Positions 13,645 through 59,486 of a DNA stretch of 64,000 nt are shown here, one piece after another. The position numbers and the translations under genes are program-made. Under the pieces are notes generated by a model. The model worked only from the letters and a program-made list of their open reading frames with translations, searched no databases and had not been told where the DNA came from. Position 1 is the stretch's first letter. The number at the start of each line of letters is the position of its first letter. The stretch comes from Lachnospiraceae bacterium 28-4 (GTDB taxonomy: Bacteria; Bacillota; Clostridia; Lachnospirales; Lachnospiraceae), in the NCBI GenBank assembly GCA_000403275.2, contig KE159599.1:62001-126000 (forward strand). The letters are read 5' to 3'.

Positions 13645-14011
13645 ATGGAAATTAATTTTGACAGAATGGGATAGGGCGGAACAGGACAGGGAAAGGAAGC
13701 GGCGGCGGCCTGGAACGAGCCTGGCTTGGGATGGGATTTTCTGCTGTTGTGCACAATCAGTCATTTCACTTATGAAATAGTCGAAAGCCCAGGGTGAAAT
13801 TGCCATGGAGGGCAATTTCAGGAAGCGCCGGGCAGGATGCCCGTTGCTTCCGACCCGATCGTTTTCACATCGTTTACCTATTTCATTAGTGAAATCTGAT
13901 TGGTAACTCCAGCAGAAAATCCCATCCCAAGCCAGGCTCGTTCCAGGCCGCCGCCGCTTCCTTTCCCTGTCCTGTTCCGCCCTATCCCATTCTGTCAAAA
14001 TTAATTTCCAT
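13645..14011. mobile_element. Foldback element A: 101-bp perfect inverted repeat around a 165-bp structured core
   Basis: Arms 13645-13745 and 13911-14011 are exact reverse complements over 101 bases. The element is flanked by a perfect 10-bp direct repeat AAAAAAATAC (13635-13644 and 14012-14021), as expected of a target-site duplication. The core (13746-13910) holds four hairpins: 13763-13778, 13796-13819, 13821-13851 and 13880-13895. The outer ends read GGAAATTAATTTT. The reading frames that cross it are artefacts of the palindrome. A related element lies at 59102-59486. No transposase is encoded, so it is non-autonomous if mobile. Confidence 0.85.
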
Positions 14012-14029
14012 AAAAAAATACACTTTCTG

Positions 14030-14058
14030 TTGACAATTCTTTTTAATTGCTATATGAT
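14030..14058 (+). promoter_or_regulatory. SigmaA-type promoter of the marR-degV unit
   Basis: TTGACA (14030-14035), 17-bp spacer, TATGAT (14053-14058). It begins eight bases beyond the right-hand flanking repeat of foldback element A. Confidence 0.8.
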
Positions 14059-14069
14059 ATGAATTGTTT

Positions 14070-14110
14070 TTCACATTGTGAACTTTTCACTTTATGAACT
14101 TTTTAAGTTC
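14070..14110 (+). promoter_or_regulatory. Palindromes, candidate MarR operators
   Basis: TTCACATTGTGAA (14070-14082) is a perfect 13-bp palindrome. TTCACTTTATGAA (14086-14098) resembles it, and GAACTT/AAGTTC (14096-14110) is a third. They lie between the -10 and the marR start, a typical place for autorepression. Binding by the MarR protein is inferred. Confidence 0.55.
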
Positions 14111-14142
14111 TATACAAGAAAAACGAAAGGCAGAGAATATAT

Positions 14143-14586
14143 ATGAATGAAGAATTATTGGAAGCATGGCTCAGGCTTTCTACCATACTGTGCAACGACA
14201 GGATCGTTTCTGAAATGCCTTATAACGAAGCGCTTATCTGCAATATCCTGCACCGGCGCCAACGGCTGGATAAAAACGGAACGACAACCGCCACCGATCT
14301 GTGCCGTCAGACGAAAATGCTGAAATCACAGATGAACCGGACATTGCAAAGCATGGAAGAAAAAAATATTATCACAAGACGCCGTTCCGACACGGATAAG
14401 AGGCAGGTCTTTATTTACCTGAATCCGAATGCAAAATCTTTTCAGGAACAGCACGCCAAAAGCTTGCAGCTGATCGACACGCTGGCCCAAAAAGCAGGGC
14501 CGGAAAAATCAAAGGAAGCAATGGAACTTTTCACTTTTATCGCCGATATGGCAGAAGAAATCATGGAAGATAAGATTGAAAATTAA
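14143..14586 (+). CDS. MarR-family transcriptional regulator
   Basis: 147 residues with a winged helix-turn-helix. The recognition region around residues 45-90 (TATDLCRQTKMLKSQMNRTLQSMEEKNIITRR, in overlapping parts) is followed by the wing RRSDTDKRQVFIYL. It is flanked by dimerisation helices. It probably represses its own promoter through the palindromes at 14070-14110 and may control the downstream DegV gene. The ligand is unknown. An AACGAAAGGCAGAG purine stretch precedes the ATG. Confidence 0.85.
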   Translation: MNEELLEAWLRLSTILCNDRIVSEMPYNEALICNILHRRQRLDKNGTTTATDLCRQTKMLKSQMNRTLQSMEEKNIITRRRSDTDKRQVFIYLNPNAKSFQEQHAKSLQLIDTLAQKAGPEKSKEAMELFTFIADMAEEIMEDKIEN

Positions 14587-14599
14587 AAATTTTCAATCC

Positions 14600-14668
14600 C
14601 AAGTTTGTGTCTGCGCGGCATCCACAAACTTGAAAGCCAGGCTGGCTTTGCGCAATAAAGCCGCGCAG
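14600..14668 (+). ncRNA. Predicted pseudoknot leader between marR and degV
   Basis: CAAGTTTGTG (14600-14609) pairs with CACAAACTTG (14623-14632). The loop holds CTGCGCGGC (14611-14619), which is exactly complementary to GCCGCGCAG (14660-14668). Between them AAAGCC/GGCTTT forms another hairpin. The set makes an H-type pseudoknot whose last strand ends just before the degV ribosome site (ATGGAG at 14671). It could act as a translation or transcription control element. No known RNA family is recognised. Confidence 0.55.
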
Positions 14669-14682
14669 AAATGGAGTAAACA

Positions 14683-15519
14683 ATGATTAAAATATTAGTA
14701 GATTCTTCTTCGGACTATGAATTAAAAGAAATTAAAGAAAATAATTTTGAATTTGTCCCAATCCACATTACTTTGGGAGACGAAGATTATATCGACGGAA
14801 TTTCCCTGAATAAAAATGAATTTTACGAAATACTGGAAAGCAGCGGAGACTTCCCTAAAACCTCCCAGCCTTCCCCCCAGGCGTTTCTGGAGATTTTTAA
14901 AACAGCGAAAGAAAATAAGGATACCCTCCTGTGCATCCTTCTCTCTTCTTCTTTGAGCGGCACATGCCAAAGCGCCCAGATCGCAAAGACGATGGCAGAC
15001 TATGACGATATCCATATTATCGATTCCTTGTCCGCCTCCTGCATGATCAAGATTTTGGCCGATTACGCATGTTCACTGGCAAAAGAAAATATGCCTGCCG
15101 GAGAAATTGTTGCCAGAGTGGAAGAATTAAAATCCAGAGTTACGCTCTTCGCCGGACTGGATACGCTGGAATATCTCTGCAAAGGAGGACGGCTTTCCAA
15201 ATCAGCCGCCGCTATCGGAGAACTGGCCAATATCAAGCCGGTAATTACCGTGACAAAAGAAGGATCTGTAGGCATTCTTGGCAAATGTCTTGGCAAAAAC
15301 AAAGCCATTACCCAGGTCTTCAAACATATACAAGAAACCGAAGCAGACAGCGCCTTCCCCTTATACACCATATATACCCATGGCACGGAAAACTGCAGCC
15401 TTCTGGAAGAAAAGCTCCGTGAAAACGGCTATGAAGTCAGCCAAAGGCTCCAGGTAGGAGCCACAATAGGCGCACATATCGGCCCGGAAGCCTTCGGCGT
15501 AGTATTCGTATCGAAATAA
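14683..15519 (+). CDS. DegV-family fatty-acid-binding protein
   Basis: 278 residues, the normal DegV length. Typical features are the N-terminal ILVDSSSDY, the SSSLSGTCQSA stretch near residue 92 and KPVITVTKEG near 185. DegV proteins bind a fatty acid and, as FakB, present it to the kinase FakA for lipid synthesis; a FakA gene is not in this window. It follows marR after a structured leader and its last 91 bases overlap the convergent lipoprotein gene on the other strand. Confidence 0.88.
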   Translation: MIKILVDSSSDYELKEIKENNFEFVPIHITLGDEDYIDGISLNKNEFYEILESSGDFPKTSQPSPQAFLEIFKTAKENKDTLLCILLSSSLSGTCQSAQIAKTMADYDDIHIIDSLSASCMIKILADYACSLAKENMPAGEIVARVEELKSRVTLFAGLDTLEYLCKGGRLSKSAAAIGELANIKPVITVTKEGSVGILGKCLGKNKAITQVFKHIQETEADSAFPLYTIYTHGTENCSLLEEKLRENGYEVSQRLQVGATIGAHIGPEAFGVVFVSK

Positions 15520-16814
15520 GCCAGTTTTTCTACATACCAAGTGGGTTCCGCGTTCTCATCGGATGGAATGACCCGATTGGATATATAACGGAACCCGCCG
15601 TTTTCCACAGGCCTGACCGTCACCTCATGGCAAAAGGCCCTCTCCATATTTTCTTTTGGCCAGACCGCATTGACTGTCAGGCAGACAGTCCCATCCTCAT
15701 TTTCCTCGTAAGAAACCACCTCGGGATATGGAATGTTTGGGGAACTGGCACAGTCGTAAAACCCTCTCGTCCTGTATTCATAAGCCTCTTTTTCTTCCAC
15801 ATATCCCTGCCGTATGCGCAAGGCTTTTTTATCTATGGAAAAATAAGACTGTATTACCGTTTCGTATTCTTTTTCCGGCACCAAATAAGAAGTCCCGTCC
15901 ACGGACTGCTCATAGGGAATCGGAACGCCGTAGGCACAGGAATACAACTTTGCAAACAAATCATCGAAATCCAATACTTCCCACTCCCCTTCCGTCCAAT
16001 CCTCCAAAAACATATCATTGGCTCCATATCCTATCGGAAGAATATATTTGCGGTTCCATTCCCTGCATTTTTCATCCAAAGGTTCCACACGGATAGCCGT
16101 ATATCCTTGAGATCCGTCATATCCTGCCGGAACTTCCTTTCGAAAAAACAGATAACCGTTCTGCGAATATTTCCACTCCCCCGCCGGATAACGTTCTGTA
16201 TAATCCACTTCCGGCATCCCGCCTTTCCAATGCAGAACACTCCTTGTCACAAAAATCGTTCCTTTCTCCGACTCCAGGTCAAAACGGATAAAACCTCCGT
16301 CATCCATAATCGAGAAAATGGTTTGTCTCCCGTCCTTTCCTTCCTCTGCCAGCCCGATCCACTCCTTTACCAGTTCCGGGTGTGTCAGATTCACCTGGTT
16401 CTTATTTTCCTGGTCGATCGCGCAATAGCCGTATTCCCCCATTCTGTCCACAATCGCCTTTGTCGTCTCCAGGCTTCCCAGCGCATTCTCCTGCACCGCC
16501 CTCTCATAAATATCCCGGTATGCTTCCGCCGCCTTTCCGGATGCTGTCTGCAAGTCTTCCTCCTGTCGGTCTAAGGCCATATCTTCGTCCACAGCTTCCT
16601 CTCCGCCGACTTCCCCATCCATGCCCGCATCCTCATAACCCGCTGCTTTCCCGTATCCGTCCGTTTTTCCGTTATTTCCGCACCCCCATACGGCCAGCGC
16701 CAGAATCGTACCGGCAAAAGCAACGTTAAGGCGTCTCTCCTTCCGCCGCTTTCCCGCCCTGGTACTCTTTTCGGAACCATACATCCAGCACTTGGCTGAC
16801 CTTTTCCACCACAT
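15429..16814 (-). CDS. Predicted lipoprotein, unknown function, C-terminus overlapping degV antisense
   Basis: 461 residues from the ATG at 16814, which has GGGGAGG eight bases upstream although this lies inside the PBP gene (89-bp overlap). A basic n-region and hydrophobic stretch end in the lipobox LAVWGC, so the mature protein should be membrane-anchored outside the cell. The body is acidic with no family I can name. The final 30 residues are read from the antisense strand of degV and look unlike protein selected for function. The original stop may have been lost near GCTTAT (about 15520). It is probably co-transcribed with the PBP gene. Confidence 0.7.
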   Translation of the reverse strand: MWWKRSAKCWMYGSEKSTRAGKRRKERRLNVAFAGTILALAVWGCGNNGKTDGYGKAAGYEDAGMDGEVGGEEAVDEDMALDRQEEDLQTASGKAAEAYRDIYERAVQENALGSLETTKAIVDRMGEYGYCAIDQENKNQVNLTHPELVKEWIGLAEEGKDGRQTIFSIMDDGGFIRFDLESEKGTIFVTRSVLHWKGGMPEVDYTERYPAGEWKYSQNGYLFFRKEVPAGYDGSQGYTAIRVEPLDEKCREWNRKYILPIGYGANDMFLEDWTEGEWEVLDFDDLFAKLYSCAYGVPIPYEQSVDGTSYLVPEKEYETVIQSYFSIDKKALRIRQGYVEEKEAYEYRTRGFYDCASSPNIPYPEVVSYEENEDGTVCLTVNAVWPKENMERAFCHEVTVRPVENGGFRYISNRVIPSDENAEPTWYVEKLAYFDTNTTPKASGPICAPIVAPTWSLWLTS

Positions 16815-18912
16815 AACCGCTTCCTCCCCTCTCTTTCACATCCTCCACCATGCTTACGATCAATATAGGGTTTTCCTCATCCTCCCCGGCGCTGAATACC
16901 GCGAACCAGCCAAGTTCCGTGCCGGTTGTATCCTCTTTGGAGTCTTTGATTTCCGCTGTTCCTGTCTTTCCCGCCAGAAGCACATCCTCCCTGCGGGCGG
17001 CATATCCCGTCCCTTCCGAATCATTCACCACTCCTTTCAGCCCTTCCAGCACCCGACCCGCAGTATCCGTGGAAATCGCCCCGGATATCCACTGTTGCGG
17101 CTGCGCATCCTCCTGATATACCAAATAGGGCTTTACCATATTTCCCCCATTGCGAAAAGCAGTATAAATACAGGCGAGATGCAGCGGATTTACCAATATC
17201 TGTCCTTGCCCGTATCCGCTGTCCGCCAGCTGTATCTCCGTTCCTATCGTCTCACCGTTGGAATATTTGGAAGCGGACATATTTATTTCAAAAGGAACCG
17301 CTTCATTAAAACCAAGTTTATCCAGATATTCCTGCATATTTTCTGCCCCGATTTTTAAAGCCGCTTTTGCAAAATATATATTGTCGGAGCAAATCAGCGC
17401 ATTTTCCAACACCGAAGGATCATACTCGTGAAGCGTCGTAATATAATAATCACCCCAGGAGCTATCCTTCTGCCAGCTCAATCCCTCCTGCCCGTAATCC
17501 TCCTCAGGATCGACCATCCCGCTTTCCAACCCCACCGCCGCCGTCACAGGTTTGAAAGAAGACCCCGGACACCATACCTGGCGGAACCTATTATATAAAG
17601 GCTGACTTTCGTCTCCATTCAGCGCATCCCACTGCGTCTGGGACATTCCCAGAATAAACTGGTTATTGTCATATGCCGGAGTGCTGACCAGGGCAAGCAC
17701 TTCCCCCGTCTCAGGATCCATTGCCACACTGCAGCTTTCATCTGCTTTAAACTGTCCATACAAAAGAGACTGCACTTGTATATCGATGGTCAGCCTGATA
17801 TCAAATCCATTTTCCACCTCTCTGTCAGCCAGTTCCTGTTTCACTCCCCCGTCTTCATTCTCTATATAAATCCGACAGCCGTTTTTCCCTTTCAATTCTT
17901 TTTCAAAAAGGCTCTCCATACCGCTTCTTCCAATCACACTGTTGGCCGTATAACCTTCCCCCGCATGTTTTTCCAGATCTTCCGCCGTCACATTCTGCAC
18001 ATAGCCAATCAAATGTGATGCGATCTTCCCAAAAGGATATTCCCTCACTTCCGTATCGGAAATCATAACTCCCGGAATAGCGAGCAGCTTGTCCTGCCGT
18101 TCCTTTTCCCTTATCAAATCATCCTCCGGCTCCAACGCCATCAAATCCAGTTCTTCTACCTTGGCTACCGTTTTTATTGGAACAAAATAATCATCTTTTA
18201 CCCAAGAAGCCGATAGCTTTTTTTCTATCGTCTCCCGCTTTACTTCCAGCAATTCCGCAATTTCGTCGATCGCCTGTTCCTTATTCTCCAGTTTGCCCGG
18301 CACGATTCCAACGGAAGAAGCAACTCCTTTTCCTGCCAGAAGCACCCCATTCCTGTCATAAATGCTGCCCCTTTCTGCCTGTTCCGTTGATACCCTGACT
18401 TTATCCCCTTTTTCCAGACCGGGAAAGATCAGCCCGTCATTCCATGACAGCCAATATCCTTCCTCCCCTTTTATAAAACATGCCTCGTTGTCAAAACTGA
18501 TATTTCCTGCCGCTGTTTCACAGGAACTGTGGTATTTTACCGCCATCCTTTCTTCATCGTACTCCACCGCGCTTATCCCCAGTGACCGGATTTCGATTCC
18601 TTTATAAATCGCCTCATTCCTTTCTATAAAGTCCTCTAAACTCACATTCCCCGAAGTCTCCGCATCCAATATCCCGTACATCTTTTCATATTCTCCATCC
18701 AGGACATAGGCCATATATTCTGTTAAAAGTTCCGGCGGTTTCTTCCATCCTCTCTCTTTATTAAAAAAAAGAAAACCTAAAACTGCGCCTCCTGCAAGCA
18801 GCACCAATGCAAAAGTCGCAGCCGCCCATAGAAATAAGCGTTTTCCACGTCCGTTCTTCCTCTTTCCACCCCTTTTCCGGTTTCTGTTTCCGCTTTTCCA
18901 CTTTTTTTTCAT
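16726..18912 (-). CDS. Class B penicillin-binding protein (PBP2a/PBP3-like) with MecA_N domain
   Basis: 728 residues. A basic cytoplasmic tail and one membrane anchor (about 26-50) are followed by an NTF2-like MecA_N region (about 57-165), a PBP dimerisation domain and a transpeptidase domain. The active site motifs are SSFK, SDN and KTGTAE in order, all intact. It should cross-link peptidoglycan outside the membrane. The MecA_N domain is shared with low-affinity PBPs such as PBP2a and PbpC; drug resistance cannot be inferred. The start has AGGAGACC ahead of ATG. The lipoprotein gene follows with overlap. Confidence 0.9.
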   Translation of the reverse strand: MKKKWKSGNRNRKRGGKRKNGRGKRLFLWAAATFALVLLAGGAVLGFLFFNKERGWKKPPELLTEYMAYVLDGEYEKMYGILDAETSGNVSLEDFIERNEAIYKGIEIRSLGISAVEYDEERMAVKYHSSCETAAGNISFDNEACFIKGEEGYWLSWNDGLIFPGLEKGDKVRVSTEQAERGSIYDRNGVLLAGKGVASSVGIVPGKLENKEQAIDEIAELLEVKRETIEKKLSASWVKDDYFVPIKTVAKVEELDLMALEPEDDLIREKERQDKLLAIPGVMISDTEVREYPFGKIASHLIGYVQNVTAEDLEKHAGEGYTANSVIGRSGMESLFEKELKGKNGCRIYIENEDGGVKQELADREVENGFDIRLTIDIQVQSLLYGQFKADESCSVAMDPETGEVLALVSTPAYDNNQFILGMSQTQWDALNGDESQPLYNRFRQVWCPGSSFKPVTAAVGLESGMVDPEEDYGQEGLSWQKDSSWGDYYITTLHEYDPSVLENALICSDNIYFAKAALKIGAENMQEYLDKLGFNEAVPFEINMSASKYSNGETIGTEIQLADSGYGQGQILVNPLHLACIYTAFRNGGNMVKPYLVYQEDAQPQQWISGAISTDTAGRVLEGLKGVVNDSEGTGYAARREDVLLAGKTGTAEIKDSKEDTTGTELGWFAVFSAGEDEENPILIVSMVEDVKERGGSGYVVEKVSQVLDVWFRKEYQGGKAAEGETP

Positions 18913-18927
18913 CCTGGTCTCCTATAC

Positions 18928-18963
18928 AAAAATGCTCTGAACAGCCAAACCGCTGTCCAGAGC
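18928..18963 (-). terminator. Terminator after the flagellin gene
   Basis: Minus strand stem GCTCTGGACAGC / GCTGTTCAGAGC with a 6-base loop, then ATTTTTG. It separates flagellin from the PBP transcript. Confidence 0.8.
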
Positions 18964-19009
18964 GTCTATTTTCTTATCTTCCTGCCACCCATCCGTTACC
19001 GCCGGCATC

Positions 19010-19768
19010 CTACATGCCGAACAGCTTCGTTATCATGGAATCATTCTGCATTTTCCTGCGGGTGAACATCATGCGGTAATCCTGTAAGAGTTTGTTCTTT
19101 TTCTGCTCCGAAACCGCTTTCGGAATATCCAGATCTTCAATACGGCTCCTTGCTCCGACAGTTTCCAATGACGTCCTTGTATTGGAATTGTACGCATGTT
19201 CCATAGCGTTCGTCCTTGCCCCTGTCGCGCTTCTGGCAGAACTGATCTTATCCATCGCCGACTCAATCCTGCTAAGATCGAATTTGCCTGTGACATTATA
19301 TCCGTCAATCCCCAAAGATTTTAACGTCACGTTCTCCATCTGGATCTTCATGCCCGTGCCGTCGGCATTCGATGCAATATGCATATCCGCCATGCTGCCG
19401 TCCATCAGCTTCATTTCGTTATATTTGGTTCCTACTGCGGTACTTTCTATATCTTGTAAAAGCTGGTCAACCTCATCCTGGATCATCTGTTTTTCAGAAT
19501 CTCCGTACATGCTGTTCGATGCCTTGATGCTAAGTTCATAAATCCGTTGCAAGGAATCCTGCATGGTACCCAATGCGCCGTCCTTAATATTGGCAACGCC
19601 GATACCGTCCATAATATTATCAGCCGCCACGTCCAATCCGTTGCTTTGGCGTTTCATAATATTCGCAATGGCAAGCCCTGCCGCATCGTCAGCCGCCGTC
19701 TGGATCCTTTTTCCGCTGGCTATCTTGCCATATATGGAATTGTAGCCATTGATCGCCGATATCCTCAT
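19010..19768 (-). CDS. Flagellin-like protein, short and isolated
   Basis: 252 residues. The N-terminal D0/D1 flagellin core is clear (SGKRIQTAADDAAGLAIA at about 20-37, then a long helix), and a C-terminal helix begins RIEDLDIPKAVSEQKKNKLL. The end of the protein (DYRMMFTRRKMQNDSMITKLFGM, in part) lacks the usual hydrophobic C-terminal signature of exported flagellins. There is almost no variable central domain. The ATG at 19768 has AAAGGAGAGG upstream; ten earlier codons are open but lack a site. No other flagellar gene is in the window, so a filament role is uncertain. Confidence 0.8.
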   Translation of the reverse strand: MRISAINGYNSIYGKIASGKRIQTAADDAAGLAIANIMKRQSNGLDVAADNIMDGIGVANIKDGALGTMQDSLQRIYELSIKASNSMYGDSEKQMIQDEVDQLLQDIESTAVGTKYNEMKLMDGSMADMHIASNADGTGMKIQMENVTLKSLGIDGYNVTGKFDLSRIESAMDKISSARSATGARTNAMEHAYNSNTRTSLETVGARSRIEDLDIPKAVSEQKKNKLLQDYRMMFTRRKMQNDSMITKLFGM

Positions 19769-19835
19769 AACCTCTCCTTTCTGACACAAGCCCTTCACGC
19801 TTATGCCACCTCAATACACTTCTCCTTATATGCTT

Positions 19836-19864
19836 AGTATAATACACCTGCCCTTTCCATGCAA
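19836..19864 (-). promoter_or_regulatory. SigmaA-type promoter of the flagellin-like gene
   Basis: Minus strand TTGCAT (19864-19859), 17-bp spacer, TATACT (19841-19836). I see no sigma-28 motif here, which is unusual for a flagellin gene. Confidence 0.65.
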
Positions 19865-19914
19865 GACTTTTTGTCATATTCTCCCTGATTTTTTATATAC
19901 CGCTCACTCTTTCG

Positions 19915-21105
19915 CTATGCCTTCCTTACTTCATCCACCGCTTGCTTTATCCTAAGAAGAGCTTCTTCCAAAATTTTTCTCGGACAGGCAGCATTCACTC
20001 TTTGGAAACCTTCTCCGCTTTTTCCGAACATCCTTCCGTCGTCCAGCCAGAGCCTTGCCTTATGGACCATCATTTCCTCCAATTCCTTTGCTGACAATCC
20101 CAATTTTCTGAAATCCAGCCAGGCCAAATATGTCCCCTCATGCTCTGCCATAACGACTCCCGCTATATTTTTTTCCACATATTCTTTTATAAACTCCAGA
20201 TTGGCTTTTACATACCTGCGCATGGCTTCATACCATTCATCGCCGTCCCTGTAGGCCGCCTCACAGGCTGCAAGACCCATCACGTTCACTTCGCCGTACC
20301 CCGACAGATCCATTTGTCTGCAAAACGCTTTCCTCATTTCAGGATTGCTGATAAAAATATTGGACAACTGCAGACCCGCCAGATTAAAAGTCTTGCTGGG
20401 TGCGGTACATGTCACCGTGATTTCTCCGTACTCTTTCTTCAGATCGGCGAACACATAATGTTTTCTTTCAAAAGCAAAGTCTTGGTGAATCTCATCGCTT
20501 ACTACGAGTACATGATGTTTGCAGCAAATATCGCCCAGCTTTATCAATTCCTCCGGCGTCCATACCCGTCCCACGGGATTGTGTGGATTACAGAGGATAA
20601 ACATTTTTACGTTTTGTTTTACAATTTTTTCCTCAAAATCTTCAAAGTCGATATGATACCGCCCAGCCTCATATACGAGATCGCTGCTGACCATCTTTCT
20701 CCCGTTTACATCCACAATATTCTGAAAAGGATAATAAACCGGCTGCTGTATCAGCACGCTGTCTCCTGGTTCCGTAAAGGCTTTTACCGCCAGTGCCAGG
20801 GCGAAAACAACACTCGGCGTTTTTACGAGCCAGTCCTCGGAAACCTTCCAGCCGTGTTTTCTCTCCATCCATCCTTTTACGATCTCAAAATAGGTCTCCT
20901 GTACATCGCTGTATCCAAAGATCCCATGCTCCGTCTGCCGGGCCAATGCCTCCTGTATATAGGACGATACTTGAAAGTCCATGTCCGCCACCCATAAAGG
21001 CAGCGTGTCCTCCGGCATTCCCTTTTTTGCTATCCAGTCATATTTGATCGATTTCGTATTTCTTCTGTCTATTATTCTGTCAAAATCCAGATTCTTCTCT
21101 GCCAT
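19915..21105 (-). CDS. malY: MalY/PatB-type PLP-dependent C-S lyase (cystathionine beta-lyase)
   Basis: 396 residues from the ATG at 21105, which has GGAG five bases upstream; the frame is open to 21129. Fold type I aminotransferase features are visible: NPHNPVGRVW, VSDEIHQDFAF and the PLP lysine in APSKTFNLAGL. LPLWVADMDF near the N-terminus is typical of MalY/PatB. Such enzymes cleave cystathionine or related thioethers to give homocysteine, pyruvate and ammonia in the cytosol. MetA is encoded about 115 bp upstream, which fits methionine synthesis. Confidence 0.88.
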   Translation of the reverse strand: MAEKNLDFDRIIDRRNTKSIKYDWIAKKGMPEDTLPLWVADMDFQVSSYIQEALARQTEHGIFGYSDVQETYFEIVKGWMERKHGWKVSEDWLVKTPSVVFALALAVKAFTEPGDSVLIQQPVYYPFQNIVDVNGRKMVSSDLVYEAGRYHIDFEDFEEKIVKQNVKMFILCNPHNPVGRVWTPEELIKLGDICCKHHVLVVSDEIHQDFAFERKHYVFADLKKEYGEITVTCTAPSKTFNLAGLQLSNIFISNPEMRKAFCRQMDLSGYGEVNVMGLAACEAAYRDGDEWYEAMRRYVKANLEFIKEYVEKNIAGVVMAEHEGTYLAWLDFRKLGLSAKELEEMMVHKARLWLDDGRMFGKSGEGFQRVNAACPRKILEEALLRIKQAVDEVRKA

Positions 21106-21219
21106 AGTATCTCCATATCCTTTCCGCAATTTTCCAACATCTGCATAATTTCTGCCCCTGTAAAAGCAGGTCTTCCATCTTTTTAAATTTTTCTCTTTTC
21201 AGGCCCATCGTATGCCCGC

Positions 21220-22128
21220 CTACCCAAGCACATAATCCGTAATCTGGTACACATAATAATTCAACCAGTTGGTATACAAATTATTGCTGTGGGAACGCCA
21301 TTGCAGCTTCGGGCGTTCCGAAGGGTCATTATCAGGATAATAGTTCTTCGGTATATCGATGGGAAGTCCCTTTTCTTTATCCCGCACATATTCATTATGT
21401 AACGTCATACGGTCATACTCAGGATGTCCCATAACAAAAATCTGCTTTCCCTCTCCTGCCATACATAAAAGCACACCGGCTTCCTCGGACTCCGCTAGCA
21501 CAAGCAGCTCCCTGCATCCATGGATGGCGTCTGCCGGAATGGCCGTGTGCCGGCTATGGGGAATCAGAAAATAATCGTCAAACCCTCTTACTAGAGGAAT
21601 CTTCCGGTTCATTACCTTATGTTCATAAATGCCGAACAGCTTTTGGGGCAGGAGCACTTTATCCAGGCCAAAATGATAATAAAGCCCCGCCTGAGCCCCC
21701 CAGCAGATATGAAGGGCGGAGGTCACTTTTCTTTTGGACCATTCCATAATTTCGCACAATTCATCCCAATAATCCACCTCCTGAAAAGGAATCTGCTCCA
21801 CAGGCGCACCGGTGATCATCAGGCCGTCATATCTGTTTTCCTTCAATTCGTCAAAGGTATGGTAAAACTGATTCAAATGGTTCATGGAAGTGTTCATGGA
21901 ACGATGACTGTTCATCTTCATGAACGTAACGTTCACCTGGAGCGGCGTATTGGACAAAGCTCTTAAAATCTGCAGCTCCGTATCCTGCTTCACCGGCATC
22001 AGATTTAAAATGCATATTTGCAGCGGGCGGATGTCCTGATGGATCGCCCTGTTTTCATCCATAACGAAGATATTCTCATTTTCCAATATCCCCTTAGCCG
22101 GCAGACTGTTTTGTGTTTTAATCGGCAT
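21220..22128 (-). CDS. metA: Homoserine O-acetyltransferase (MetA family)
   Basis: 302 residues, the usual MetA length. The catalytic nucleophile Cys142 lies in HICWGAQAGL, and His235 and Glu237 are in MGHPEYD. Residue 111 is Glu, which in characterised MetA enzymes marks acetyl-CoA rather than succinyl-CoA use, so the product should be O-acetylhomoserine. It starts inside the last 11 bases of ligA, suggesting coupled translation, and is followed by malY. Together these serve methionine synthesis. Confidence 0.92.
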   Translation of the reverse strand: MPIKTQNSLPAKGILENENIFVMDENRAIHQDIRPLQICILNLMPVKQDTELQILRALSNTPLQVNVTFMKMNSHRSMNTSMNHLNQFYHTFDELKENRYDGLMITGAPVEQIPFQEVDYWDELCEIMEWSKRKVTSALHICWGAQAGLYYHFGLDKVLLPQKLFGIYEHKVMNRKIPLVRGFDDYFLIPHSRHTAIPADAIHGCRELLVLAESEEAGVLLCMAGEGKQIFVMGHPEYDRMTLHNEYVRDKEKGLPIDIPKNYYPDNDPSERPKLQWRSHSNNLYTNWLNYYVYQITDYVLG

Positions 22129-24127: not shown

Positions 24128-24165
24128 GCCCTTTTCATAATCTGCAAACTTTCACTCCTGCCGTC

Positions 24166-27417: not shown

Positions 27418-27451
27418 CGTATAAATAAACGATTATAAGAAATCCCAAATT

Positions 27452-40735: not shown

Positions 40736-41023
40736 AAAAAACTCCGCCTCCATTTCAACCTTTGTTAAAATCAAGAGACGAAGCTGATCCGCGGTTCCAC
40801 TCTTATTAAAGATGATATTCTCACCCTTCCCTCATAAAACGTAACGTGTCTTCCCCGTATGCGGATACCGGGAAAAAATATGCTTCCTTTCCCCGCATCA
40901 GCTCACAGACGCACTTCCGCTGCCTTCCCATCGGAACTGCTCTCAGCCAACGGCAATTCCTCTCTGTTATCTTCCGGCTGCGTACTCTTTCTGCTCATAG
41001 CCTTTTCTATTCTGACTTCTTCT
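40736..41023 (-). promoter_or_regulatory. T-box riboswitch leader, probably tRNA-Cys specific
   Basis: On the minus strand the leader has the stem I AAAGAGTA-type motif, an AGAGAG motif, and a TGAGAGC loop. A candidate specifier TGC (Cys) follows in GGAAGTGCG. The T-box core GTGGAACCGCGG is at 40800-40789. The terminator pairs CTTCGTCTC (40783-40775) with GAGGCGGAG before TTTTTT (ending about 40736). The downstream genes cysE and cysS agree with a cysteine specifier. The exact specifier position was not modelled. Confidence 0.88.
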
Positions 41024-47625: not shown

Positions 47626-47719
47626 ATTATACGTATGTTTGCATTAAAACGTCCGTGTCCGCATTTAATGAAACATTCCCGTAAAACTGACGAATCAATC
47701 ACAATAGGAGGTGTGGGTC

Positions 47720-47983: not shown

Positions 47984-48021
47984 CTTTAAGTCTCAAAACC
48001 GGATTCTAAAATATAAACAAA

Positions 48022-48052
48022 CCCTCCATACCGTCATGTGGAGGGCTTTTTA
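48022..48052 (+). terminator. Terminator of rpsT
   Basis: CCCTCCA / TGGAGGG stem followed by CTTTTTA. Confidence 0.85.
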
Positions 48053-48080
48053 CTGTCTTTTTTATTCTCTTCTCTTACGG

Positions 48081-48944: not shown

Positions 48945-48989
48945 TCCGCTCCTCCATACCGTCCCCGGTCCCTCTTCCTTTTCCGCCTT

Positions 48990-49973: not shown

Positions 49974-49989
49974 ACTCCTCCCCCTTATC

Positions 49990-51075
49990 TTAGTAAATCG
50001 TCCTGTCTCTCCCCGCTTCTTTTCCCCTGTAAAGCTTCTTATCCACGTCGTTCACGGAATAATCAATGCCCCTTTCAAAGTCAAATTCGCTCAACCCAAA
50101 CGTCATCGTCACCTTTATCATGTGTTCCTTGTAATGTATCTCCATCTTTTTCATCTTCCTGTTCAAGTCATTCAGAACCATCATCGCTTCATCACCATTC
50201 ATATGATGAAATGCGAAAAGGAATTCCTCTCCGCCCCAACGGCTTATTGTTCCTTTATTCTCCAGATTGCTCAGAAAAAAACTGGACAGGCGCTTTAACA
50301 CCACGTCGCCGCACTCATGCCCATATGTATCATTAATCTTTTTAAAAAAATCAATATCTCCTATGGCGATCGACATGCCTTCTATATGCCCGTCTTTATA
50401 TGCCCGTATCTTTTTTTCCAGAAATTCCCTCATACTCCGCCTGTTCAGCAGCCCTGTCAGCGGATCCACGGAGGCCAGCCTGTGAAGCTTTTCGTTATAC
50501 TGGATCAGTTTCTGCTCCATTTCGATAGAGTCCTTGGTAAATACCGATAAAATCCCTGTAATGCCGATAAATACGAATATTGTATTCGTAATTTGGTAAA
50601 TAACGCTTATTTCATTTCCCAATAGATACCTCGGTTCATACTGCCTGGTATATGCATACAGGGAAAGCCGGAATAAACAGGCGATGGCGCTCATCAAAAG
50701 TTTCCATGACAACTTGCGGTAGCTGATGGTAAACCCAAGCACAATGAGGACGAATATAAAATGCTGTATCCCGCAATCCCATCCGAACTGTCTGATAAAA
50801 ATAAAAATCCATATAGTGGTAAATAACACCGAAAAATATACTGCCAGTTTCGTATCGTTCAAATATGTAGTATAAAACGCCAATCCATATACGCAAAAAC
50901 ACATCAACAGCATGATCAGGGGGGTGCTTTCCCCCACTGTCAGAAAAATTCCCAGCAGACACAGGAAATAAACACACATAATAAGCGCATTCAGCCGCAA
51001 TATGACCGATACCTTTTTCGTCTCATTTTCATTTTCCACATCTTTAAATATCATTGCGATGAATCTCTGAATCAT
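49990..51075 (-). CDS. Membrane diguanylate cyclase (GGDEF)
   Basis: 361 residues from the ATG at 51075 (GGAGG seven bases upstream; frame open to 51123). About six membrane helices fill residues 25-190. A GGDEF domain follows with DPLTGLLNRRSM and the active-site GGEEF. An inhibitory RxxD site is not obvious. It should make cyclic di-GMP, possibly the substrate of the HD-GYP protein at 5092-6354. Confidence 0.9.
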   Translation of the reverse strand: MIQRFIAMIFKDVENENETKKVSVILRLNALIMCVYFLCLLGIFLTVGESTPLIMLLMCFCVYGLAFYTTYLNDTKLAVYFSVLFTTIWIFIFIRQFGWDCGIQHFIFVLIVLGFTISYRKLSWKLLMSAIACLFRLSLYAYTRQYEPRYLLGNEISVIYQITNTIFVFIGITGILSVFTKDSIEMEQKLIQYNEKLHRLASVDPLTGLLNRRSMREFLEKKIRAYKDGHIEGMSIAIGDIDFFKKINDTYGHECGDVVLKRLSSFFLSNLENKGTISRWGGEEFLFAFHHMNGDEAMMVLNDLNRKMKKMEIHYKEHMIKVTMTFGLSEFDFERGIDYSVNDVDKKLYRGKEAGRDRTIY

Positions 51076-51217
51076 TTCCTGTCCTCCGAACTTTCCACTC
51101 CCCGATGCCTTATCGATATTCAACGACTATTATAACTCAACTGACAAAGTTTATCAATTTTCTTTTCATATTTATTCAAAATAAAACTTTTTATTGCCGC
51201 GCTCTGGTCCCCATCCG

Positions 51218-51246
51218 AAAAAGCAGCGGTCTCCCAACCGCTGCCC
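51218..51246 (-). terminator. Terminator of the bgl operon
   Basis: GCAGCGGT / ACCGCTGC stem with a 6-base loop and TTTTT on the minus strand, about 45 bp after the GH1 stop. Confidence 0.85.
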
Positions 51247-51292
51247 GGACAAATTTTGTTTCATCCTTTTTGAATGTTTCCTGATATTTTCC

Positions 51293-54676
<3,384 letters not shown>

Positions 54677-54698
54677 TTAAAATAAATATTTTTATGAA

Positions 54699-54725
54699 GG
54701 TTTGGCCAACTGAATGTCACCATCC
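54699..54725 (-). promoter_or_regulatory. Second RAT-like antiterminator site, between licT and the PTS gene
   Basis: The minus strand reads GGATGGTGACATTCAG and then TTGGCCAAACC, close to the site at 55688-55714. No strong terminator overlaps it, so it may be a remnant or act differently. Confidence 0.6.
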
Positions 54726-54743
54726 TGGCATACATGAGAATTG

Positions 54744-55589
54744 TTACCGCCTGACCTTATTCACTACCCGTTCAATATGAATGGTCAGATAAAGCTGCTC
54801 CTCTTTGGAAAGCAAATAATTGTATTTCGATTCGATAAACTTTGTGATCTTTTCCACGCAGTTGTACGCTTTCGGATATTTTTCCCTGATAACTCCCCAC
54901 AAATCCTCCATCTCATCCTCTTCATAAATCCTGCGTTCCACCAGCCGCTGCGCAAAAAATTTCAAATGCGTAATAAAACGGAAGTAATACACATCCTCTT
55001 CATCAAAATCTATTTTAAAGAAATATTTTACGATATTAACCACTTCCTGTATAATCCGGGTAATTTCATACATATTATGCATACTCTCCTGATCCATCTG
55101 CCCGTTTGCCAGATGAAGGGCGATAAAACCGGCCTCATCTTCCGGAAGCCGTACCTTGCACTTTTCCTGGATCAAATCGAGCGCCCAGAGCCCCACCCGG
55201 AATTCTTCCTTATAAAATCTGCGGATATCCCATAAAAGAACATTTTTTACCGTCACGCCCTCCAGAAAACGGACGATAGAAGTATGTACGTGGTCGATCA
55301 GGGAAATATAAAGCGTATCATTTAATTTCTTGTCAAGACGCCTCTTTGCCTCCGCAATAATCTCCTCTCCCACCGCTATATGTTCTATCGGAATATCCTG
55401 TATCATCGTCTGGAATTTATTATTAGCATCCGCCGTAGAAAGGCAGAAAGTCTTATCCACCGTATCTTCCCCGATCTCCTCCCCCGCCTTTTTATGGAAG
55501 CAGATCCCTCTTCCCATAACGATTTTTTCCTGCCCGTTTTCGTCCATGATCACGGCCACATTATTATTCAGAATCTTATATATCCTCAT
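54744..55589 (-). CDS. licT: BglG/LicT-family transcription antiterminator
   Basis: 281 residues. The RNA-binding CAT domain fills residues 1-60 (KILNNNVAVI, GRGICFHKK). PRD1 (about 70-170) holds IDHVHTSIVRF and FIALHLAN, and PRD2 (about 180-281) holds FITHLKFFAQR and YLTIHIERV, so all four regulatory histidines are present. When unphosphorylated by the permease it binds RAT RNA and lets transcription pass the leader terminator. It is the first gene of the bgl operon. Confidence 0.93.
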   Translation of the reverse strand: MRIYKILNNNVAVIMDENGQEKIVMGRGICFHKKAGEEIGEDTVDKTFCLSTADANNKFQTMIQDIPIEHIAVGEEIIAEAKRRLDKKLNDTLYISLIDHVHTSIVRFLEGVTVKNVLLWDIRRFYKEEFRVGLWALDLIQEKCKVRLPEDEAGFIALHLANGQMDQESMHNMYEITRIIQEVVNIVKYFFKIDFDEEDVYYFRFITHLKFFAQRLVERRIYEEDEMEDLWGVIREKYPKAYNCVEKITKFIESKYNYLLSKEEQLYLTIHIERVVNKVRR

Positions 55590-55624
55590 AACACTACCCT
55601 GCCACAGCCTTTCTTTTTTGCATT

Positions 55625-55714
55625 AAAAAACCTATATGCACAAATATATCCTGAATCATCCGAGTCAAGAAATATTTTCACATATAGGTTTGGCTTGCTT
55701 AACAATCACCATCC
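55625..55714 (-). promoter_or_regulatory. LicT-responsive leader: RAT and overlapping terminator
   Basis: RAT at 55714-55688 (minus strand, ends AAGCCAAACC). Its last bases form the 5' arm of a terminator, AACCTATATG (55690-55681), that pairs with CATATAGGTT (55638-55629) before a T-run. This is the known LicT layout. Confidence 0.85.
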
Positions 55715-55727
55715 TGAAGATATAAAA

Positions 55728-55756
55728 ATAGTAACATCATTCAGAACATAAGTCAA
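55728..55756 (-). promoter_or_regulatory. Promoter of the bgl operon
   Basis: Minus strand TTGACT (55756-55751), 17-bp spacer, TACTAT (55733-55728), directly before the RAT leader. Confidence 0.8.
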
Positions 55757-55826
55757 TGATATTTTCTACGTTATTTTATCTAAAAAGCCCCTGGCAATAT
55801 TAGATATTTTGCATAAATCCTGTCGT

Positions 55827-56390
55827 TTAACACTCCTCCAACAGCATCCGAAGCAGCATGATATGATACTCTTCGTCCTTGACGATCCTTTCCAGCACCG
55901 CATTGACACAATCGTCTTTTATCATTTTCATATGCATTTCATACTGGCGGATCGCTTCCTTTTCCGATTCTATGCCCGCCAGAAGCATCTTCTTCATCTG
56001 TTCCGGTAAGACCAGATATTCCGGAGTCCACATGACCGGCCTCCCATTGCGGCCCTTTGCGGTAAAATCCACCGTGCCGCCGAGCAAAACAATCAGTTCG
56101 CCCAGTTTCTGCAAGTGCATCATCTCCGCCATGGCGATTCCAAGAATCGTCTTCGCGATCGAACAGTTTTCACCGGATATTCTGTTTTCATTATTAATAT
56201 ACTGCGCGATCGCCGAGAGTTCCGACACCGCCCCGCAATAATCCGCGCGGAGAAGATCCGCATATCCCTGGTTTTCTCCTCTGACCTGAACCGGCGGATA
56301 TGGGAGGTCTGCCATCACCGGCCTTATTCCTGCAAAATTGCATGTATTGATAAACGGGTTCCTTTTTTCTTCCAAACGAATAATCTCCAA
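55827..56390 (-). CDS. Ferritin-like di-iron protein
   Basis: 187 residues forming a four-helix bundle. Candidate metal ligands are in GAVSELSAIAQY, AMAEMMHLQKLGEL, ESEKEAIRQYE and KDEEYHIMLL, the ferritin/bacterioferritin-like pattern of two E-x-x-H type sites. A role in iron storage, peroxide defence or spore coat (CotJC-like) is possible; none is proven. It appears monocistronic. Confidence 0.75.
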   Translation of the reverse strand: MEIIRLEEKRNPFINTCNFAGIRPVMADLPYPPVQVRGENQGYADLLRADYCGAVSELSAIAQYINNENRISGENCSIAKTILGIAMAEMMHLQKLGELIVLLGGTVDFTAKGRNGRPVMWTPEYLVLPEQMKKMLLAGIESEKEAIRQYEMHMKMIKDDCVNAVLERIVKDEEYHIMLLRMLLEEC

Positions 56391-56441
56391 TATACTATTT
56401 TATAAGATAATATATTGGAGATTGCAAAAAGTGTACCTTTT

Positions 56442-57638
56442 TTACCAGCTTTTCTGTAATTTTATATTCCAATCCAGATGATAGGGGCTGTCCGGTTCCT
56501 CCAGCAGCATCTCATAAACCATCCTTCGAAAATCGCTGCCTTCTCCCGCCCAATATTCATAGCCCATCATATAGCTGTCCGTAAAATCATCCCAGGAGTC
56601 AAATTTACTCTGTGCAAGCACCGCTACTTCCAATGATTTGTCCAGCGCTTCCTCCGCTTCATAATAGCCCACGTAATAAAAGCTGGACATCAGCATGATA
56701 GCCCGGCTGTAATCCCAGGCCGATATGGCGTCTTCGCCTTTTTCTTCATAAGCCTTATAGAACCGGGCATAGCGTTCCGCTTCCGTTTCATCCATTTCAT
56801 AATGCTCGCGGAAAAACCTTTCTCTTTCCTCTTCCGCCACATCGCCAAGCCCGTCCGCTTTCAGGCTTTCCATTTCTTCCACAAAAGCTCCCCGGTGTCC
56901 TCTGCTTGCCAGCTTGTCCCATTTTTCTTCGGCCGAGGCCCGATCCGTAATTCCCCACTGCCTGGAAAGCATATTTTTATCCATTTCTATCAGTTCCGTA
57001 TCGGCCGGCGCTCCTCCAAACATCGTATATTCCATCCCGTTCAGACTTGTCAGCACCGCATGGGTTCCATTCATCCAAAGAATCGTATCTGTCATTTCCA
57101 CAACAGTCCGTTCGGCCTCCTCCGGCGCATTTTCCTCCAGAGAAGCGCATATTTCCTGAATATGGCCCATCTTATCCTCATCGATCTTCTTTGCCGTATA
57201 AATGATGGCATAATAAGCATAATCGGTTTCTCCATATACGATATAGCCTTCCCCGTCTACGCCCCCCATATCCAGCTTGCATCGATAGGCTTCCAGCCCT
57301 GTCAGCCCCGGTACTGTGCCGGCCCCATCCAGCTTTTCCAGTTCCGAAACCCGGCAGACGGTTTTTACCGCCTCCTGCATATCCTCCGGGCCGGAAAAAT
57401 CCCTTCCTTTCACGGACTGCAGCACCATAATCCCATCCTGTCCGTTTCTGCCGGCCGCTCCGATCCAGTTATCCGTTCCGGCATCCCTTTCCTGCCAGTC
57501 CTCTGCCAGCATAATACTGATGCTTCCGTCCACAGAATAAAATCTCTTCCCGGGAATATCTCCCTTCCCGCATCCGCCCAATGCCAACGCTGCAAAAAGG
57601 ACGATCATTGCCGCCCGGATCTTCCTGCTTCTCTTCAT
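56442..57638 (-). CDS. DUF1266-type lipoprotein, paralogue 1
   Basis: 398 residues from the ATG at 57638 (AAGGAG upstream). The signal peptide ends in the lipobox LALGGC. The N-terminal half is a beta-rich domain (SIMLAEDW). The C-terminal half (about 220-398) has the WGITD, AWDYSRA and YEYW pattern of DUF1266. It is the downstream member of a tandem pair with the gene at 57780-58985. Surface-anchored; function unknown. Confidence 0.78.
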   Translation of the reverse strand: MKRSRKIRAAMIVLFAALALGGCGKGDIPGKRFYSVDGSISIMLAEDWQERDAGTDNWIGAAGRNGQDGIMVLQSVKGRDFSGPEDMQEAVKTVCRVSELEKLDGAGTVPGLTGLEAYRCKLDMGGVDGEGYIVYGETDYAYYAIIYTAKKIDEDKMGHIQEICASLEENAPEEAERTVVEMTDTILWMNGTHAVLTSLNGMEYTMFGGAPADTELIEMDKNMLSRQWGITDRASAEEKWDKLASRGHRGAFVEEMESLKADGLGDVAEEERERFFREHYEMDETEAERYARFYKAYEEKGEDAISAWDYSRAIMLMSSFYYVGYYEAEEALDKSLEVAVLAQSKFDSWDDFTDSYMMGYEYWAGEGSDFRRMVYEMLLEEPDSPYHLDWNIKLQKSW

Positions 57639-57679
57639 CCCCCGCTCCTTCACAAATACATGCTGTCCATTTTTCCATA

Positions 57680-57724
57680 AAAAGAAGATTTGCCGGGAAA
57701 ATCATCAAATTTCCCCGGCAAATT
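57680..57724 (-). terminator. Terminator between the two DUF1266 lipoprotein genes
   Basis: TTTGCCGGG / CCCGGCAAA stem with CTTCTTTTT on the minus strand. A second hairpin (AGATTTTCC/GGAAAATCT) lies just upstream. Confidence 0.75.
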
Positions 57725-57779
57725 TTAGATTTTCCAAGACATCGTCTTTCGGATTCTTCGGAAAATCTCTTTACTTTAT

Positions 57780-58985
57780 TTACCAATTTTTTTCCAATGT
57801 CAGATTCCAATCCAACTGGTAAGGACTGTCGGGCGCAGCTTTCAGTTCTTCATAAACCGTTCTTCTTTCATCGCTGCTTTCTTCCGCCCAATACTCATAT
57901 CCAACCATGTAACTGTCGATAAAAGCATCCCAGGAGCCATAAGCGGTCTGGATCACGCTTGCTACTTCCAAAGCCTTATCCAAAGCTTCCGTCTCCGTGT
58001 AATATCCGGCAATATAGCAGTTTGCGATCACAGATACCGCGCGGCTGTAATCCCATGCGGACATAACATCTATTCCTTTTTCATCATAACCAGCATAAAA
58101 CGCTGCATACTGCTGCGCGATCTCATCCGTCATATTCGTATAATTGTTGAGCAGGTAATCCGCCCTTTCCGCTTCCGGCATATCGCCGAATCCATCTTCT
58201 GTCAGCATATCCATCATTTCCGCAAAATCCATACGGTGTCCTTCGCTGATCAGCCATTCGATCGTCTCATCCGCCGACGCCTTGTCCGTTACATCCCACC
58301 ACTCGGACAGCATCGACTGCTGTATCGCCATAGACTCGTCATTAGCAGGCATACCGCCGAACATATTATAATCCCATCCGTTAAGCGCCGTCAGAACCGC
58401 ATAAGTTCCGTTGATCCAGCGAATCGTATCCGATACTTCCACAGTGGAATTGTTCTCGATTTCCGGTGCATTTTCTTTAAAGCTGCCACATACATTGCGT
58501 ACATAAGCAATCTTATCGTCGTTCATCTTCTCCGACACATATAATATGGCATAATAAGCGTAATCCGTCTCGCCGTACACGAAATATCCGTCCCCTTTGG
58601 TTCCATCTACGCTCATCTTGCATTTATAAGCCTCTATATTTTCGAGTCCCGGCACCAGACCGTTTCCGTCCTCCGCCGTCATTTCCGAAGCGCTGTATGT
58701 ATCCTCAAAAGCAACCTTTATGTCCTCCAGGGCAGCCGCATCCACACCTTTTACAAACTGTGCGATAATCAGCCCGTCCCTTTCGTCCTTGCTGACCGCT
58801 CCGATCCATCCGTCCACTCCTGCGTCTTCCGTTTTCCAGTCTTCCGCCAGCATAACGCTCACGACTCCGTCCGAAGATGCAAATTCCTTCGTAGGCTTCT
58901 CCGCCTCTTTTGTTCCGCAGCCAGCCAAAGCCGTCACAAGAAGGACAGCGGCCAGCCACACCAATGCTTTTCTTGCTGTTTTCAT
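57780..58985 (-). CDS. DUF1266-type lipoprotein, paralogue 2
   Basis: 401 residues. Lipobox LAGC at about residues 20-23. It aligns with its neighbour along the whole length, sharing MLAEDW, VYGETDYAYYAI, MFGG-P-, AWDYSRA and DSPY-LDWN. The two arose by tandem duplication and have since diverged. Its own sigmaA-type promoter lies at 59046-59074. Function unknown. Confidence 0.8.
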   Translation of the reverse strand: MKTARKALVWLAAVLLVTALAGCGTKEAEKPTKEFASSDGVVSVMLAEDWKTEDAGVDGWIGAVSKDERDGLIIAQFVKGVDAAALEDIKVAFEDTYSASEMTAEDGNGLVPGLENIEAYKCKMSVDGTKGDGYFVYGETDYAYYAILYVSEKMNDDKIAYVRNVCGSFKENAPEIENNSTVEVSDTIRWINGTYAVLTALNGWDYNMFGGMPANDESMAIQQSMLSEWWDVTDKASADETIEWLISEGHRMDFAEMMDMLTEDGFGDMPEAERADYLLNNYTNMTDEIAQQYAAFYAGYDEKGIDVMSAWDYSRAVSVIANCYIAGYYTETEALDKALEVASVIQTAYGSWDAFIDSYMVGYEYWAEESSDERRTVYEELKAAPDSPYQLDWNLTLEKNW

Positions 58986-59045
58986 TATTCTCTACCTCAC
59001 TTCTCCTTATTTTCTGATTGTCCCATAAAATTTAAGCCGGTCAAT

Positions 59046-59074
59046 ATTATACTCCATTTCGTTATTATATGCAA
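59046..59074 (-). promoter_or_regulatory. Promoter of the DUF1266 lipoprotein genes
   Basis: Minus strand TTGCAT (59074-59069), 17-bp spacer, TATAAT (59051-59046). Confidence 0.7.
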
Positions 59075-59101
59075 TCTTTATTATATATTATATACAATCC
59101 A

Positions 59102-59486
59102 CGGAAATCAATTTTTCTAATTTTTCTAAACGTCATGCCAGACGAAGCGAAACGAAGACAAGCGGTGGCGAGGCAGCGGGGAAAGGGGCTGGCGGGGCTT
59201 CGGTTTTCTGCTGTTGCGTACAATCAGCAATTTCACTTATGAAATGGTCAATACCCAGAGCGAAACCGCCAGGACGGCGGTTTCAGGAAGCGCAGGACAG
59301 GATGTCCGTTGCTTCCGGCTCGTCCGGTTGGATACCATATATCCATTTCATTAGTGAAATCTGATTGGACGCTCCAGCAGAAAACCGAAGCCCCGCCAGC
59401 CCCTTTCCCCGCTGCCCCACCCCCATTTGTCTCCGTTTCGCTTCGTCTACCACGGCGCTTAGAAAAATTAGAAAAATTGATTCCCG
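59102..59486. mobile_element. Foldback element B: 111-bp imperfect inverted repeat around the shared core
   Basis: Arms 59102-59212 and 59376-59486 are complementary at 99 of 111 positions. The 163-bp core (59213-59375) aligns to the core of element A in the same orientation, with the same four hairpins. The outer end GGAAATCAATTTT also matches, but the middle of the arms is unlike that of element A. No flanking direct repeat is seen, so this copy is probably older. Non-coding. Confidence 0.82.

Follow-up and report, generated by a model that had tools for sequence, protein, structure and literature searches.

A dispersed transposon-like hairpin with a TwoAYGGAY core and concertedly changing arms in Lachnospiraceae bacterium 28-4

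Two long hairpins, elements A and B, lie in a 64,000-nucleotide stretch of Lachnospiraceae bacterium 28-4 (contig KE159599.1, positions 62,001 to 126,000; hereafter the window), and both belong to a family that is probably a non-autonomous foldback transposon resembling a miniature inverted-repeat transposable element (MITE), i.e., one with a structured tip, mobilised in trans, whose arms are homogenised against each other by template switching. The family consists of dispersed repeats with shared termini, target duplications, and empty sites in a related genome; its arms change in concert, its core is inverted at some sites, and the mismatches between its arms are symmetric. New here is the transposon-like nature of the elements, while the core itself is already known as the candidate RNA family TwoAYGGAY (RF01731).

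A and B are the only long inverted repeats in the window, the next longest pair measuring 30 nucleotides (nt). Their core type is termed SF2; SF1 is a second, different-looking core that was found with the Rfam model. The features of the two elements are as follows.

13635 to 13644, no strand: direct repeat AAAAAAATAC left of A, probable target-site duplication, read from the sequence
13645 to 14011, plus strand (core sense): element A (SF2), transposon-like hairpin; inverted repeat I2; RNA-folding z-score against shuffled sequence -27
13645 to 13760, plus strand: 5' arm of A (copy C2:75880), from the inverted-repeat search; 116 nt, 96% complementary to the 3' arm and 135 nt from it; arms free of mismatches farther than 30 columns from the core
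13747 to 13909, plus strand: core of A, TwoAYGGAY RF01731, 76.8 bits (converted from L001 1510-1672)
13796 to 13819, plus strand: first core hairpin of A, loop ATGGAG, from sequence and RNA fold; TTG/CAA becomes CCG/CGG in B
13821 to 13851, plus strand: second core hairpin of A, from sequence and RNA fold; G-C becomes A-T in B
13896 to 14011, plus strand: 3' arm of A, from the inverted-repeat search and the arm mismatch count
14012 to 14021, no strand: direct repeat AAAAAAATAC right of A, probable target-site duplication, read from the sequence
59101 to 59487, plus strand (core sense): element B (SF2), inverted repeat; RNA-folding z-score -25; the matching place in a related genome (G004) lacks the element
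59101 to 59227, plus strand: 5' arm of B; 127 nt, 88% complementary to the 3' arm and 133 nt from it; 12 mismatches in the 97 columns beyond 30 from the core
59214 to 59374, plus strand: core of B, TwoAYGGAY RF01731, 84.5 bits (converted from L010 1510-1670)
59361 to 59487, plus strand: 3' arm of B, from the inverted-repeat search and the arm mismatch count

An earlier note on this DNA, made from the sequence alone, had observed that A and B share a core and an outer sequence, and this extends to about 100 copies in the source genome of the window (G000; 4.28 Mb, seven contigs), with two cores and one terminus. The SF2 core pattern, covering the 3' half of the core, occurs at 77 places in G000 and the SF1 pattern at 25 (including a weak match with 3 mismatches), against none for the reversed control patterns of either. 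From these, 101 copies were extracted, of which 84 have both core halves; the remaining 17 were dropped on account of an unrecognisable 5' core half, 8 of them being interrupted by an insertion sequence (IS). Common to both subfamilies are the outer terminus CACGGAAATCAATTTT, a G-rich 5' arm, and a C-rich 3' arm. Arm mismatches were counted in the 78 of 84 copies with measurable arms (score of at least 30), leaving aside the 30 columns nearest the core; pairwise tests used the 73 copies scoring at least 45, and the target-duplication test used the 47 copies with both termini. Beyond those 30 columns, 11 of the 78 copies have no arm mismatch at all.

In the 47 copies, terminus positions are conserved at 0.73-0.97. 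Directly outside CAC|GG...CC|GTG lies a direct repeat of 9 bp in one fixed register (identity 0.51, z 11.5 versus permuted flanks), matched at 7 or more of 9 positions in 12 copies where 0.42 would be expected, SF1 and SF2 both being represented. The same register recurs in 22 copies from two relatives, G004 and G001 (mean match 4.73 versus 2.44 +/- 0.31; three exact 9-mers), with all copies matching at 7 or more positions coming from G001; this and the other species comparisons rest largely on draft genomes. In G004, whose flanks are 85-91% identical at shared sites, the element is absent at B (element-free counterpart G004:C79:16343-16344), C1:594634, and C1:609054, as judged from a subset of sites and with junctions that are not base-precise at 86% identity. 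At the place of A, G004 holds just a 13-nt terminus-like piece, which suggests loss there. An exact 19-nt end was found in 9 of 290 extracted loci, each time close to an element core. No transposase family recurs beside the copies, except for an IS located in the loop. Mobilisation by a Y1/RAYT transposase was considered and rejected, PF01797 not being associated with carriers at E 1e-10 in draft genomes (none in the carriers G001 and G004, 3 in G000, and 5 and 4 in the non-carriers G009 and G012).

The arms were said in the earlier note to be copy-specific and yet complementary within each copy, and so they are: in G000 (39 copies), the two arms of a copy have a median identity of 96%, as against 72% for arms and 80% for cores between copies. 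The corresponding medians are 95%, 69%, and 83% in G004 (12 copies) and 93%, 85%, and 91% in G001 (8 copies); shuffled arms in the same kind of alignment give about 63%. The further claim that the arm middles lack similarity between copies stands only as far as copy-specificity goes; SF2 arms from different copies beat dinucleotide shuffles (mean local score 15.1 versus 9.4), 30% of 1540 arm pairs exceed the shuffled 99th percentile, and G001 arms are, as given above, largely alike. Capture of arms from phages or plasmids was likewise rejected: the core of A matched nothing in phages and plasmids, and one terminus-plus-arm string matched nothing in plasmids, the arms themselves being unsearched; the exact core and terminus patterns gave no match in IMG/VR contigs. 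Such capture is also unnecessary, given the shared termini and the G001 arm family.

At nine sites, G000 and G004 each have an SF2 element, allowing all four arms to be aligned. A column is called concerted when both arms agree inside each genome and the genomes differ. The nine alignments contain 203 concerted columns, 1 that is arm-specific across genomes, and 0 crossed; the remaining columns are 356 invariant, 55 with single or other changes, and 239 gapped. Concerted indels occur as well (e.g., L145/L020), and at two of the nine sites (L149 and L153) the core has switched orientation with respect to the flanks. The arms are thus one family that has drifted in concert. This half bears out a possibility that the earlier note had named as damaging to its own reading, namely that the arms are one family that merely drifted: one family they are, but the drift is concerted.

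How a change in one arm comes to be matched in the other is the point on which the explanations part. Under selection for RNA pairing, the whole hairpin would function as a long double-stranded RNA, its arms being matched by compensatory mutation. This accords with the very strong predicted fold, with the match of the core to an Rfam RNA family, and with core stems that covary and favour G·U over A·C; we nevertheless consider it unlikely. Across the 78 copies, the arms contain 136 G·U and 136 A·C mismatches (42 versus 45 in the 20 SF1 copies, 94 versus 91 in the 58 SF2 copies), and 14 copies from other genera contain 71 and 86. As G·U does not exceed A·C, the idea that arm pairing is kept for a sense-RNA fold finds no support. 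Concerted changes at the two best-aligned sites comprise 30 transitions and 12 transversions (12 of 42), matching the rate in the flanks (1779 and 605); concerted indels and the inverted cores also speak against RNA selection. Arm mismatches are moreover clustered (SF1, 44 versus 25.9 +/- 4.1; SF2, 215 versus 91.3 +/- 8.4; 0 of 500 permutations reach either value), a count to which small alignment indels may contribute and which is weakened to that extent as support for copying. In SF2, mismatches are rarer near the core and commoner with distance, a trend that is weak in SF1.

When a polymerase switches template between inverted repeats, the published signs are homogenised arms, changes that come in clusters, and an inverted spacer (PMC8604942, PMC8794818; these and the other papers cited here are represented by excerpts). 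The symmetric arm mismatches and the flank-like spectrum of concerted changes fit replication template switching better than RNA selection, and we infer that template switching is the agent that copies between the arms. The view in the earlier note that the fold rather than the sequence is kept can hence be retained for the covarying core, but not for the arms.

A different origin of matched arms would be the re-making of each copy at transposition through a hairpin intermediate, one arm templating both, so that arms are born perfect and then decay; shared sites would in that case be re-insertions. The 11 copies with perfect arms are in keeping with this, as are the three of nine shared sites whose elements are not mutual best relatives and the two sites that hold different subfamilies. 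At five of the nine sites, by comparison, the elements are each other's best or near-best relatives (L145, L149, L153, L155, and L165; partner arm rank 1-3 of 56) and are clear orthologues, yet 98 columns there are concerted against 1; furthermore, the G001 copies share their arms, and a move therefore brings no new ones. We accordingly hold re-making to be an improbable general account of the matched arms.

The core is of another kind than the arms. Both SF1 and SF2 cores match RF01731 along the full model, with two hairpins that carry AYGGAY-like loops, and the scores of A and B pass the gathering cut-off of 43 bits over the whole model; a default fast Rfam search of the window had missed both. 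In a scan of G000, 62 of the 63 matches listed lie above the cut-off. With matches of 77-87 bits, the suggestion in the earlier note that the core might be a novel structured RNA is ruled out. Its companion proposal, a hairpin DNA substrate with a variable stem, comes close to the present finding. Matches to MIR1437 on the locus of B (L010) were discarded, since they lie under the family cut-off and fall on both strands, as expected of a long hairpin. TwoAYGGAY appeared in 2010 as a table entry for a probable RNA of the human gut, gamma-Proteobacteria, and Clostridiales (PMC2864571), and in 2014 it was proposed to bind CsrA via its loop motifs, its external stem being described as "not well conserved" (PMC4333381). 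The excerpts of PMC2864571, PMC4333381, PMC11701678, and PMC7657543 make no mention of dispersed repeats, mobility, or long matching arms for TwoAYGGAY.

The core changes between A and B that the earlier note quoted can be read directly from the two sequences, and its claim that the core hairpins covary is borne out chiefly in SF2: two or more Watson-Crick types, each in at least two copies, are found at 13 of 32 SF2 pairs, yet at only 2 of 38 SF1 pairs. Core stems contain 6 G·U and 2 A·C in SF1 (21 copies) and 47 and 12 in SF2 (63 copies), together 53 to 14; this excess, put at about 3:1, counts non-independent cells, with 21 of the 53 at one possibly misassigned SF2 pair (32:11 without it), which tells against leaning on it heavily. 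Since the core stems prefer G·U over A·C and covary, the core fold of one strand appears, on moderate evidence, to be selected, whether as RNA or as single-stranded DNA. That the copies arose by duplication of a small RNA gene whose product binds CsrA, or of a cis-regulatory leader, is very unlikely, in spite of the Cis-reg type that Rfam assigns to RF01731 and the binding through loop motifs proposed in the excerpted PMC4333381, as core sense shows no preference relative to co-directional neighbours (22 versus 24 of 73 copies in a rough, ORF (open reading frame)-based count), which speaks against a leader of particular genes, while the core flips at two of nine sites, the distribution is patchy, and the target duplications indicate insertion.

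On the transposon explanation, each copy of about 300-400 bp would bear ends, CAYGGAAATCAATTTT, that a trans-acting transposase presumably recognised, with 9 bp of target being duplicated on insertion. The centre would be the TwoAYGGAY fold, kept on one strand either as RNA or in the form of single-stranded DNA, and the long arms would be largely free to drift once inserted. As the arms face each other across the folding core, template switching (quasi-palindrome correction) would transfer a change from one arm to the other and would sometimes flip the core. In this way, each copy would come to have its own self-matching arm sequence. A bolder extension, which we consider doubtful, is that the core is a selfish adaptation, i.e., that its strand-specific fold joins the arms at the replication fork and creates a template-switch hotspot, so that the two ends, corrected against one another, remain legible to one transposase despite the drifting arms. 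If true, TwoAYGGAY would be the means by which a transposon proofreads its own ends.

Several observations weigh against the transposon explanation. Of the 47 copies, roughly a quarter show a recognisable target duplication, and no G004 copy matches the 9-bp register at more than 5 of 9 positions; A has a direct repeat of 10 bp, though just 6 of 9 positions agree with the common register, and B has no recognisable target duplication. No autonomous partner or transposase turned up, the whole genome not having been searched for the termini. Within-copy arm identity is lower in G001 than in G000, though the G001 copies look younger, and homogenisation is therefore not equally efficient everywhere. 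Only the five shared sites named above are clearly orthologous by sequence: the partner arm ranks 51, 31, and 54 of 56 at L152, L161, and L163, elements that seem to have been replaced or turned over, and an intermediate 7 of 56 at L164. Two more sites carry different subfamilies in two species (L148/L073 and L180/L066; SF2 versus SF1). Poorly ranked partners and differing subfamilies indicate that site turnover also happens, besides copying in situ. Finally, in genome G178, copies with an SF1-like core (L251 and L267) have no long arms. A separate observation at one of the mixed sites is that the inner arm of L148, GCATGGATTT, resembles that of its SF1 counterpart L073, as if a core had been swapped within old arms.

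Beyond G000, with its 77 places, the SF2 pattern is found at 29 places in G001, 26 in G004, 11 in G002, and 7 in G003; none were found in G005, G010, G014, or G015, and G013 has one chance match, other members of the genus having been compared with core DNA only. Among named relatives, SF2 is present in database entries called Lachnospiraceae bacterium (metagenome-assembled genomes (MAGs) S10_Bin3 and S4_Bin4, strain 526-35, and IMSAGC_002). Four SF2-pattern matches, L209, L227, L246, and L237, from Pseudobutyrivibrio and one MAG, were set aside as chance, for want of an RF01731 match. RF01731 itself is patchy, with at least 17 of 295 genomes of the order carrying it and at least 15 of these 17 having two or more matches; these counts are lower bounds, obtained with stricter filters and at most 9 candidates scored per genome. 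Another genus of the family (g55) has self-complementary arms, 207-305 nt long, in 8 of its 10 scorable copies, with the ends showing no target duplication. The idea that TwoAYGGAY is universally long-armed is refuted: among 28 loci, two of them incomplete and unscorable, long arms are clear in G004 and one other genus, and weak arm scores in other genera were not counted because a mixed-flank control (mean 1.0) reached 36.8 in one value. Long arms are thus widespread for TwoAYGGAY, not universal, and mobility is shown only in the genus of the window.

Element pairs less than 2.2 kb apart in G000 stand in minus-then-plus order in 10 of 11 cases, with core 5' sides facing (e.g., C1:1031200/1031685, C3:179923/180472, and C3:653055/653565). 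Core-identity percentiles of 0.99, 0.92, 0.62, 0.88, and 0.80 for the five scored of six pairs are no more than suggestive of an origin as duplicates. The core is also a site of insertion by another element: an IS with a DDE_Tnp_1 (PF01609) transposase and the ends TAATGTCATTAAGTTAGGCTTTG has inserted into 8 SF2 copies, in each case precisely at the first AYGGAY loop (L093, L097, L100/L121, L103, L119, L122, L125, and L126, on contigs C1 and C2 of G000). At L100/L121, where both sides were read, it is flanked by the 10-bp duplication CCATGGATGG; two copies of the same IS elsewhere, L278 and L279, also have 10-bp duplications. The first AYGGAY loop looks like a preferred target of this IS.

Elsewhere in the window, a T-box leader (RF00230, 109.5 bits) lies on the minus strand at 40771-41007. 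Adjoining B on the minus strand are two ORFs (56442-57653 and 57780-58985) with visibly similar lipoprotein-like products, probably a tandem duplication. A second intergenic repeat of about 120 nt, unrelated to A and B, occupies approximately 14563-14687 between MarR-type and DegV genes; at least 7 more copies, 93-98% identical, lie elsewhere in G000, and many are present in G001, G002, G003, and G014. Visual inspection suggests that it could fold into nested or knotted stems, and an Rfam search gave no convincing match to it.

Ultimately, these elements provide, within a single genome and at many independent loci, a natural experiment on an issue of RNA evolution, the upkeep of long perfect stems. 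For short RNA stems, the part that template switching plays in upkeep has been called "less clear" (PMC8794818, in excerpt); here, arms of about 100 nt stay matched without sign of selection at the RNA level. Covariation alone is hence no proof of a functional RNA stem, and the core, in which one strand is apparently selected, and the arms, which are apparently copied, can be told apart by their G·U to A·C mismatch ratio. An orphan candidate RNA family listed since 2010 thereby gains a context as the tip of a dispersed transposon-like hairpin.

Among known systems, repetitive extragenic palindromic (REP) elements, which go with a Y1 (RAYT-type) transposase, are multicopy, intergenic, and palindromic, as are the elements described here. 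Unlike REPs, which measure 20-40 bp in the excerpted account (PMC3733652), the present elements span 300-400 bp, have target duplications, and show no Y1 transposase association. Bacterial MITEs such as MITEAba12 (PMC6382973, in excerpt) are closer in being small, non-coding, and multicopy, with inverted ends and a 9-bp target-site duplication; the ends of MITEAba12 are 16 bp and its copies diverge little, whereas our arms are approximately 60-160 nt and copy-specific, conservation residing in the folded centre. The earlier note had cast the elements as the opposite of MITEs, from which, given the conserved ends and target duplications common to both, the unusually conserved folded centre remains as the distinction; an ordinary MITE has conserved ends around a variable centre, and in G000 it is the core that is better conserved than the arms. 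Galileo, a foldback transposon of Drosophila (PMC3573991, in excerpt), likewise has long inverted repeats, which differ from copy to copy but are 98-100% identical to each other inside any one copy; it is, however, eukaryotic, far larger, and P element-related, as opposed to an element without a transposase gene and with an RNA-like core. Quasi-palindrome correction by template switching (excerpts of PMC8604942 and PMC8794818) shares arm homogenisation, clustered changes, and spacer or loop inversion with our elements, in which both homogenisation between species and inversion of the spacer were found; what has been described there concerns short repeats and stems, as compared with approximately 100-nt arms over a 130-170-nt core at many loci. 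To TwoAYGGAY RNA (RF01731), the likeness is a full-length model match with both AYGGAY-loop hairpins, and the difference from its excerpted descriptions is that here the fold caps a dispersed element whose long arms match each other, whose termini are conserved, and which has target duplications.

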